Source: Pelagimonas sp. | GTDB lineage: Bacteria; Pseudomonadota; Alphaproteobacteria; Rhodobacterales; Rhodobacteraceae | Assembly (NCBI GenBank): GCA_025210265.1 | Contig: JAOASD010000031.1 | Location: 62,001-126,000, forward strand | Length of the DNA: 64,000 nt | Reading direction: 5' to 3' | Part shown: piece by piece, positions 20,682 to 22,704 of the stretch | How positions within the stretch are numbered: the first letter of the stretch is position 1 | Layout of the letters: every line of letters begins with the position of its first letter | The notes under the pieces: generated by a model | The model's input: only the letters and a program-made list of their open reading frames with translations | Databases searched by the model: none | Told to the model about the DNA's origin: nothing | Position numbers and translations under genes: made by a program

Positions 20682-20762
20682 TAAAAAACGGCGGTGCTCA
20701 GGGAGGAGGAGAGAGCACCGCCGTTCATGTACGGGCACCCCAGGGAGGAGGAGAGGGGCCCC
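20682..20762 (-). ncRNA. CcsR-like unit 5 (hairpins 9 and 10), terminal unit with intrinsic terminator
   Basis: Hairpin 9 (20733-20762) has GGGG/CCCC next to the loop plus GGG/CCC after a two-base bulge. Hairpin 10 (20687-20725) has a perfect 13-bp stem, AACGGCGGTGCTC with GAGCACCGCCGTT, followed on the minus strand by TTTTATT. The last sRNA hairpin therefore also terminates the operon. Confidence 0.85.
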
Positions 20763-20776
20763 GATCCGAATTTTGA

Positions 20777-20845
20777 GCGGCGACGCCAGGGAGGAGGAGA
20801 GGCGCCGCCGCTATATGAGGGTCTCAGGGAGGAGGAGAGAGACCC
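20777..20845 (-). ncRNA. CcsR-like unit 4 (hairpins 7 and 8)
   Basis: Hairpin 7 (20819-20845) has the perfect 7-bp stem GGGTCTC/GAGACCC. Hairpin 8 (20777-20811) pairs GCGGCGACGCC with GGCGCCGCCGC with one A/C mismatch. Both loops are the invariant CU-rich 13-mer. Confidence 0.85.
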
Positions 20846-20855
20846 GCATCTGGCT

Positions 20856-20870
20856 GGGGCATCAGGCCCC
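20856..20870 (-). other. spacer mini-hairpin between units 3 and 4
   Basis: GGGGC-ATCAG-GCCCC. The same GGGGC-N5-GCCCC form recurs between other units, so it may be a processing or insulating element. Confidence 0.6.
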
Positions 20871-20881
20871 GAAATTTGGGT

Positions 20882-20957
20882 GGCGGCAGATCCAGGGAGG
20901 AGGAGAGGATCTGCCGCCGGTCATGTTGGGTCCAGGGAGGAGGAGAGGACCCGACAT
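20882..20957 (-). ncRNA. CcsR-like unit 3 (hairpins 5 and 6)
   Basis: Hairpin 5 (20923-20957) has an 11-bp stem, ATGTTGGGTCC with GGACCCGACAT, including one G-U pair. Hairpin 6 (20882-20918) has the perfect 12-bp stem GGCGGCAGATCC/GGATCTGCCGCC. Loops are invariant. Confidence 0.87.
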
Positions 20958-20963
20958 TTCGCT

Positions 20964-20978
20964 GGGGCATATGGCCCC
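20964..20978 (-). other. spacer mini-hairpin between units 2 and 3
   Basis: GGGGC-ATATG-GCCCC, matching the spacer hairpin between units 3 and 4 in stem but not in loop. Confidence 0.6.
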
Positions 20979-20989
20979 TGATTTCGGTC

Positions 20990-21070
20990 GACGGCGGCAC
21001 CCGAGGGAGGAGGAGAGGATGCCGCCGTCTGAGCATGTCCGGCCCTAGGGAGGAGGAGTGGGCCGGTCAT
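20990..21070 (-). ncRNA. CcsR-like unit 2 (hairpins 3 and 4)
   Basis: Hairpin 3 (21035-21070) pairs ATGTCCGGCCC with GGGCCGGTCAT with one T/T mismatch; its loop is the only one ending in T. Hairpin 4 (20990-21029) pairs GACGGCGGCACCC with GGATGCCGCCGTC with one C/A mismatch and an extra unpaired G by the loop. Confidence 0.85.
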
Positions 21071-21075
21071 TTTCT

Positions 21076-21089
21076 GGGCTGTTTGGCCC
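21076..21089 (-). other. spacer mini-hairpin between units 1 and 2
   Basis: GGGC-TGTTTG-GCCC, the third and shortest of the spacer hairpins. Confidence 0.5.
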
Positions 21090-21097
21090 GTATTCCT

Positions 21098-21166
21098 GCG
21101 GCGATGCCAGGGAGGAGGAGAGGCATCGCCGCTGCACCACCGGATCAGGGAGGAGGAGAGACCCGG
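21098..21166 (-). ncRNA. CcsR-like unit 1 (hairpins 1 and 2)
   Basis: Hairpin 1 (21140-21166) pairs CCGGATC with GACCCGG with one A/C mismatch and lies 13 bases past the DUF1127 stop. Hairpin 2 (21098-21132) has the perfect 11-bp stem GCGGCGATGCC/GGCATCGCCGC. Loops are invariant. Confidence 0.85.
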
Positions 21167-21178
21167 CGGAATTCTGTC

Positions 21179-21397
21179 TTAGCCTTCGTAGGCCGCCTGC
21201 CACGCGATCCGGCGGATCACGCTGCGGTTCAGTCCCAGATCCGACAATTCGCGATCGCTCAGCGAGGTCAGCTCGGACAGGGTGTTGCGATAGACGCGGC
21301 GGCGCGCGATGCGGGCGCGCAGCTCTGCGACCAGGGTGGTGAAGAACGCGCTCGGACCGGTTTGGGAGCGGCTGTTCAGATCAGATGCGAGTGCCAT
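21179..21397 (-). CDS. DUF1127 protein, CcaF1-like, heading the sRNA array
   Basis: A 72-residue basic protein. The C-terminal DUF1127 domain is evident in [19 protein letters not shown] and [20 protein letters not shown]. In R. sphaeroides the DUF1127 protein CcaF1 (RSP_6037) is co-transcribed with ccsR1-4, binds RNA and influences maturation of those sRNAs by RNase E. Here the same order is seen: promoter, DUF1127 gene, CU-loop hairpins. AAGAGG is the RBS. Orthology to CcaF1 is inferred from domain plus synteny. Confidence 0.88.
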
Positions 21398-21462
21398 TTC
21401 AGTGTGCCTCTTGGCGAAGATATTCGTATGCGGCCAGCACCGTTGCTGCCGATGACCTGAAG

Positions 21463-21488
21463 ATGGGGTATATGCTGCGCCTGCACAA
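21463..21488 (-). promoter_or_regulatory. RpoH (heat-shock sigma) type promoter of the DUF1127-sRNA operon
   Basis: Read on the minus strand: -35 TTGTGC (21488-21483), a 14-base spacer, and -10 CCCCAT followed by CT (21468-21461). CCCCATNT with 13-15 spacing is the sigma-32 form. A start near 21455 would leave a leader of about 58 bases. In R. sphaeroides the homologous locus is RpoHI/RpoHII dependent. Confidence 0.65.
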
Positions 21489-21603
21489 TGGAAGGTTAAA
21501 CAATGCTGCTATGCAGCAATTGCATGGGAAACCCGTCGCTAAGGTTACGGAATGCAAAGAAAATGTGCATTTATACGGTTTTGGTTGCATTGCCGCTCCG
21601 TCA

Positions 21604-21639: not shown

Positions 21640-22704
21640 ATGGATAAAATGAAAAGCGCCGTTGAGGGCGCGCTGGCTCGGATCGGGCTTCCCACCGGCG
21701 GAAACCTGATTTCCAAAGATATGATTCGTGCGCTGACCATTCAGGACGGGGTTGTGCGCTTTGTCATCGAGGCTCCGAATCCCGATATTGCCCGCAAGAT
21801 GGAACCCATTCGCCAGACCGCCGAGGCCGCCGTGGCGGCGCTGCCCGGTGTGTCCGTCGTTCATGCGGCGCTGACCGCACACGCGGCACAGCCAAAGGCC
21901 CCGTCGCTGAAAGTCGGCGGTCATGCCAAGCCGCAGGACGGGGTGATGAAACCTGCCGGCGTAAAAACTGTGATTGCCATCGGATCTGGCAAAGGCGGTG
22001 TTGGTAAATCCACTGTGTCTTCGAATCTGGCGGTGGCGCTGGCGCGGGCGGGCAAATCCGTGGGTCTGCTGGATGGGGATATTCATGGCCCCTCGCAGCC
22101 ACGCATGTTTGGCCTGACCCGGCGGGCTTCGGCCCCGGATGGCAAAACGATCGAGCCGCTGCACGCCCATGGGGTGACATTGATGTCCATCGGGTCGATG
22201 CTGGCCGAGGACAAAGCCGTGGTCTGGCGCGGGCCGATGTTGATGGGCGCGCTGCAGCAGATGATCATGCAGGTCAATTGGGGGGAGCTGGACGTGCTGC
22301 TGGTGGATCTGCCGCCCGGTACGGGGGATGTGCAGCTGTCGCTGTGTCAGAAATCCGAGGTCGCCGGGGCCATCGTGGTCAGCACACCGCAGGATGTGGC
22401 CCTGCTGGATGCGCGCAAGGCGCTGGATGCTTTTGCTGCGCTAAAGACCCCGGTGCTGGGGCTGGTCGAGAATATGGCGGTGTTTACCTGCCCGCATTGC
22501 GGCACTGACAGCCATATCTTTGGTCATGGTGGTGTGGCTCAGGAAGCCGAGAAGCTGGGAATCCCGCTGCTGGCGCAATTGCCGATTGATCTGGACACAC
22601 GTCTGGGCGGCGATGGCGGTACGCCGATTGCGTTGGGGGAGGGGCCGATGGCCCAGGCCTATGCGCAGTTGGCGGCGCGTCTGATCGAGGGTGGCGTTGT
22701 GTGA
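21640..22704 (+). CDS. apbC: Mrp/ApbC family iron-sulfur cluster carrier ATPase
   Basis: A 354-residue protein: an N-terminal DUF59/MIP18-like domain (about residues 5-80), a linker, then a P-loop NTPase domain with the deviant Walker A motif [21 protein letters not shown] and [13 protein letters not shown]. The CxxC pair in [14 protein letters not shown] binds a transferable [4Fe-4S] cluster. It delivers clusters to apo-enzymes in the cytosol. ATG 21640 is chosen because the DUF59 domain starts there and GGAG lies upstream. Confidence 0.92.

Follow-up and report, generated by a model that had tools for sequence, protein, structure and literature searches.

A DUF1127 gene, a tandem array of ten cuckoo/CcsR-type hairpins and a candidate LysR-type control site in one apparent transcription unit of Pelagimonas

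The window analyzed here, a stretch of 64,000 nucleotides from Pelagimonas sp. (contig JAOASD010000031.1), contains on its minus strand, at 20686-21169, ten hairpins with UCUCCUCCUCCCU loops located directly behind a gene for a DUF1127 protein that is encoded upstream of them on the same strand. A gene for an Mrp/NUBPL-type ATPase is divergent from the array and valS lies downstream; within the flank length fetched for 99 relatives, Mrp accompanies the array in 76 and valS in 5. The longest Mrp open reading frame of the plus strand begins at 21385, within the DUF1127 gene and promoter, and the true Mrp start is likely to be the ATG at 21640. As shown by computation, the locus consists of the DUF1127 gene, five two-hairpin units and three linker hairpins, to which the following candidate promoter elements can be added:

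21501..21515, minus strand: conserved promoter box TGCATAGCAGCATTG, candidate site of an LsrB/VtlR-type LysR regulator, core present in 88/100 arrays
21483..21488, minus strand: candidate -35 box, TTGTGC, at a fixed distance from the box in relatives
21472..21485, minus strand: TGCAGGCGCAGCAT, a TGCA-N6-GCAT arrangement over the -35 box and spacer, possibly a second regulator site
21460..21465, minus strand: candidate -10 box, CATCTT, 17 nt after the -35 box, read from the sequence
21179..21397, minus strand: DUF1127 gene, 72 aa, CcaF1-like (Pfam PF06568, 43.1 bits, cut-off 23.3)
21137..21169, minus strand: hairpin 1 (unit 1 A), 10 bp, from the hairpin fold
21098..21132, minus strand: hairpin 2 (unit 1 B), 11 bp, from the hairpin fold
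21076..21089, minus strand: linker hairpin GGGC-N6-GCCC, no CU loop
21039..21066, minus strand: hairpin 3 (unit 2 A), 7 bp, 14-nt loop with loop base 1 altered
20990..21029, minus strand: hairpin 4 (unit 2 B), 13 bp, 14-nt loop
20964..20978, minus strand: linker hairpin GGGGC-N5-GCCCC, no CU loop
20928..20952, minus strand: hairpin 5 (unit 3 A), 6 bp
20882..20918, minus strand: hairpin 6 (unit 3 B), 12 bp
20856..20870, minus strand: linker hairpin GGGGC-N5-GCCCC, no CU loop
20819..20845, minus strand: hairpin 7 (unit 4 A), 7 bp
20776..20812, minus strand: hairpin 8 (unit 4 B), 12 bp
20737..20759, minus strand: hairpin 9 (unit 5 A), 5 contiguous bp
20686..20726, minus strand: hairpin 10 (unit 5 B), 14 bp, with a U run behind it (candidate terminator)

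The initial annotation described ten stem-loops with a shared CU loop on the minus strand, and all ten loops indeed sit in hairpins, each containing CCUCCUCCC. Some of its details have to be adjusted: the extent of 20682-21166 is approximate as the hairpins span 20686-21169, and the uniform 13-base loop holds for eight hairpins, whereas the loops of hairpins 3 and 4 are of 14 nt. The motif AGGGAGGAGGAGA is present at 20700-21159 in nine exact copies and one copy with a single mismatch, and when up to two mismatches are allowed, 10 matches are detected in the window compared to 1.07 expected from shuffles. The stems total 97 bp, as opposed to a mean of 32.7 bp and a maximum of 49 bp among 2000 shuffles with the loops fixed and the rest permuted, and the fold of the minus strand of the array yields z = -11.2. 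In a further control, all arms were kept and the 3' arms were exchanged between hairpins; the native arrangement has 9.7 bp per hairpin vs 4.6 bp after swapping, and none of the 5000 swaps was as good, which indicates that the stems differ in sequence yet retain pairing. This part of the original description thus stands, but the range given for the stems (7-13 bp) does not, given that the contiguous stems vary from 5 to 14 bp, with 5 contiguous bp only in hairpin 9.

The distances between the loops alternate between 38-43 nt and 46-70 nt, which bears out the previously suggested grouping of the hairpins into five pairs, each consisting of a shorter hairpin A and a longer hairpin B. Two CCUCCUCCC hairpins per unit is an organization that we take to be shared with the CcsR units of Rhodobacter sphaeroides. 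Hairpin 10 leads into TTTTTT and resembles an intrinsic terminator; a one-mismatch match located beyond this terminator was not counted as an eleventh hairpin. A coding origin of the repeat was rejected because of the complementary stems and because only one of the nine spacings is a multiple of three. In the entire genome, the ten array loops all map to one locus, 11 further occurrences of CCTCCTCCC are isolated, and no second array was found when the genome was searched for loops.

Small hairpins without the CU loop are present in three of the four linkers of the window. The linkers of relatives fold likewise, with a mean of -10.5 kcal/mol for 105 long linkers from the window and relatives vs -6.3 kcal/mol for shuffled sequences, and the sequences of the small stems differ from genome to genome. 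The A/U-rich stretches beside the linker hairpin could be candidate RNase E sites. Neither the linker hairpin nor the control site conserved upstream of the gene was part of the initial annotation.

The array is a member of the known cuckoo/CcsR/ar14 family of alphaproteobacterial small RNAs related to stress. The Rfam covariance model of ar14 matches the window with 64.9 bits (cut-off 58.8), and of four matches in the whole genome, two exceed the cut-off and two fall short of it. Matches to ar14 were detected in 233 of 245 genomes sampled from the order, every one of them listed under the same family, and in none of the 14 controls, and the paired-loop pattern was found in 217 of 296 family genomes. 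The earlier assignment to CcsR-like (cuckoo) RNAs behind a DUF1127 gene is accordingly supported by Rfam ar14, by Pfam DUF1127 and by the recurrence of this layout, loops included, in about 100 relatives. A search with the single DUF1127 protein yielded 5 related loci. Pairing of the stems and conservation of the loop were also checked in relatives and both were found, with no arm swap equalling the native pairing in 59 of 60 relatives.

Among 96 fetched arrays, a sample that is biased towards high ar14 scores, the number of hairpins varies from 2 to 26, with a median of 8; ten or more hairpins are present in 22 of these arrays and more than ten in 14. By the pair pattern, the window has a score of 6, which is exceeded in about 27 of the 296 family genomes. 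Ten hairpins is an upper-middle number for this bacterial family and not exceptional, so that the array can be called expanded, as originally proposed, only in comparison with the four units of R. sphaeroides; a record size was rejected because 14 of the 96 sampled arrays are larger. In the 26-hairpin array of another genome (L133:1-4001, that is, G164:C1:333400-337400), the spacing repeats as triplets (42, 47 and 51 nt) and near-identical stretches recur, the mark of a three-hairpin unit that was recently amplified in tandem. The natural series of 2 to 26 near-identical loops complementary to Shine-Dalgarno sequences, with free stems, is suited to questions on copy number in riboregulation.

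The regions upstream of the arrays share a common pattern that consists of a TATGCAWTTGCTGCATRGCAGCATTG-like stretch, 12-13 nt, TTGTGC, about 16-17 nt and YATnT, the box TGCATRGCAGCATTG being located 12-13 nt before the TTGTGC -35 box. The 15-nt core, with at most two mismatches, occurs at 88 of the 100 arrays, in none of the shuffled upstream regions and in two regions downstream of arrays. In 82 of these 88 arrays, the distance from the box to TTGTGC is exactly 12 or 13 nt, with YATnT 14-18 nt after TTGTGC in 59 of the 82, and TTGTGC-N3..5-GCAGCA is present in 76 of the 88 boxed arrays. The putative promoter of the array is most likely of the RpoH type. When whole genomes were searched without reference to the arrays, the exact core TGCATRGCRGCATTG was detected in 34 of 61 and the reversed control in none. 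Among the 30 genome-wide box sites examined, 23 precede a DUF1127 open reading frame. Two more sites (L201 and L217, from G040 and G048) precede two or three copies of CCTCCTCC, and no DUF1127 open reading frame was found there within 700 nt of the box, suggesting that the box may be combined with the loops even in the absence of the protein gene. The genome of the window has a single exact copy of the box, at the array promoter. A copy with one mismatch was dropped, its position, C19:332831, being within an open frame of 427 aa. In the open-licence literature, we found no description of a box upstream of such arrays for this bacterial group. With the shared box, the activator of these RNAs across a large bacterial family could be tested in a simple way.

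Comparison with characterized sites points to a redox-sensing regulator of the LsrB/VtlR type. The core agrees with the reverse complement of the reported VtlR box of Brucella, CAATGCAGCCATGCA (PMC12595884), in 11-14 of 15 bases across the arrays and in 13 of 15 in the window, where the short form of the VtlR box, GCAT-N3-TG-N3-T (PMC7486931), has AG in place of TG. In Sinorhizobium meliloti, LsrB activates NfeR1, an ar14 RNA, through TGCA-N6-GCAT (PMC10746234). The genome of the window encodes a LysR protein (C37:94822-95724; L165:1495-2400, G000) whose best solved relative, with 253 bits against 118 for the next, is 9HH1, the LsrB of Agrobacterium (PMC11975290). The two proteins are 42% identical overall and identical in 50 of 65 positions (77%) of the DNA-binding region. 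Of the 80 family genomes searched, 77 have an LsrB-like regulator, and so do all 73 good ones, an observation that bears on the statement, derived from a small tree, that LsrB is unique to Rhizobiales (PMC11975290).

The box might nevertheless be recognized by a regulator other than the LsrB/VtlR-like protein, with the rest of the model unchanged, and to this alternative we assign rather less than an even chance. LysR-type genes number 24 in this genome, the match to the VtlR box is incomplete in the window, and none of the open reading frames listed beside trxB, the position of lsrB in Rhizobiales (PMC11975290), is of the LysR type. Conversely, within the genome the next-best LysR protein reaches only 136 bits in the LsrB comparison vs 249 bits for the best one, which, along with the identity of 50 of 65 positions in the DNA-binding region and the activation of an ar14 RNA by LsrB in S. 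meliloti, argues for the LsrB-like protein. Furthermore, arrays defined by the pair pattern are present in one of 15 genomes with a low-scoring homologue vs 52 of 61, a difference that is uncontrolled for kinship. Taken on these sequence comparisons, an LsrB-like protein is the probable regulator at the family-wide promoter box. We lean, by a narrow preference, towards the stronger proposal that Rhodobacteraceae hold a true LsrB/VtlR orthologue, the main and nearly dedicated target of which would be the DUF1127-cuckoo operon. Among open-licence papers, we found none that links CcaF1 or CcsR to LsrB or VtlR.

We consider it likely that an RpoH-type promoter activated by the LsrB/VtlR-like protein gives rise to one transcript, from which the DUF1127 protein and, after cleavage, small RNAs blocking ribosome-binding sites are produced. 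Under this model, the CcaF1-like DUF1127 gene and the five-unit cuckoo/CcsR array would be transcribed leftward as one RNA that starts at the RpoH-type promoter, with the LysR regulator of this genome bound to the upstream box, and ends at hairpin 10. RNase E, with participation of the DUF1127 protein, would then cut the single-stranded linkers, as reported for R. sphaeroides, and release two-hairpin RNAs. Speaking against the model, YjiS of Salmonella, another DUF1127 protein, reportedly displayed no RNA binding (PMC12501420). The CCUCCUCCC loops, with their anti-Shine-Dalgarno sequence, are predicted to pair with purine-rich ribosome-binding sites and so lower translation, as shown for NfeR1, and the multiple copies might provide both dose and redundancy, again as in this relative. 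The loops of NfeR1 block the ntrB start region and act redundantly (PMC10746234), and given the same anatomy, the present array most likely acts by blocking ribosome-binding sites. Exact complements of the loop, GGGAGGAGG, occur at 11 sites elsewhere in the genome, only one of which resembles a ribosome-binding site, so any wider set of targets must use shorter pairing. This site precedes a ParD-like antitoxin gene: in a ParDE toxin-antitoxin pair on a contig of the same genome (L192:381-900, C27), AAGGGAGGAGG is located before the antitoxin start. The ParDE antitoxin, with the sole exact loop complement at an apparent ribosome-binding site, is a candidate target.

An alternative role for the array would be that of a sponge, mainly sequestering an RNA-binding protein (the DUF1127 protein or Hfq) or other RNAs instead of acting on single mRNAs. 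Many equal loops within one transcript would suit such a role, as would the near identity of the loops combined with free stem sequences, with up to 26 copies in one relative, and both CcaF1 and Hfq are reported to bind the CcsR RNAs of R. sphaeroides (PMC10253847, PMC8307010). However, the same loop directly blocks a ribosome-binding site in NfeR1 (PMC10746234) and the CcsR RNAs are reported to target flhR (PMC8307010), so we regard this role as unlikely. That the hairpins merely stabilize the 3' end of the DUF1127 mRNA and the released RNAs are non-regulatory would be compatible with the strong stems, the terminal hairpin and the position of the array directly behind the gene, but is highly improbable considering that the loop is fixed while the stems vary, which points to the loop, that L201 and L217 combine the box with clustered loops and no DUF1127 frame in between, and that regulation is reported for relatives.

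If the proposal of a true LsrB/VtlR orthologue in Rhodobacteraceae holds, the regulator, the DUF1127 protein and the anti-Shine-Dalgarno small RNAs would constitute one stress-response module of Rhizobiales and Rhodobacteraceae, the parts of which are joined here in a single transcript. The closest known system is that of CcsR1-4 and ccaF1 of R. sphaeroides (cuckoo family, CIN1 locus; PMC10253847, PMC8307010), in which a DUF1127 gene is likewise followed by tandem small RNAs, with a terminal hairpin and an RpoH-type promoter (putative in our case), the difference being four small RNAs there as against five units here. These CcsR RNAs are reported to arise by RNase E cleavage of the ccaF1 transcript, with a role of CcaF1 in their maturation, to be under RpoHI/RpoHII, and to target flhR (PMC10253847, PMC8307010, PMC8625941). 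The ar14/NfeR1 RNA of S. meliloti (Rfam RF02344; PMC10746234, PMC7143759) has the same CCUCCUCCC-loop hairpins with variable stems and is activated by the LysR regulator LsrB, a mode of control for which the present array is a candidate; in contrast to the ten hairpins behind a DUF1127 gene described here, NfeR1 is one three-hairpin RNA with its own sigma-70 promoter. The SmelA075/SmelA099 family (PMC3927594) also combines three or four hairpins and anti-Shine-Dalgarno loops with several copies per genome and a link to stress, but its copies are spread over replicons, whereas here all are in one array. Finally, Brucella and Agrobacterium possess a VtlR/LsrB circuit (PMC12595884, PMC7486931) in which a similar box allows a LysR regulator to activate small RNAs as well as genes of the DUF1127 type; the protein and RNA genes are separate in that circuit, whereas in Pelagimonas they form one apparent transcription unit that is probably under the equivalent control.
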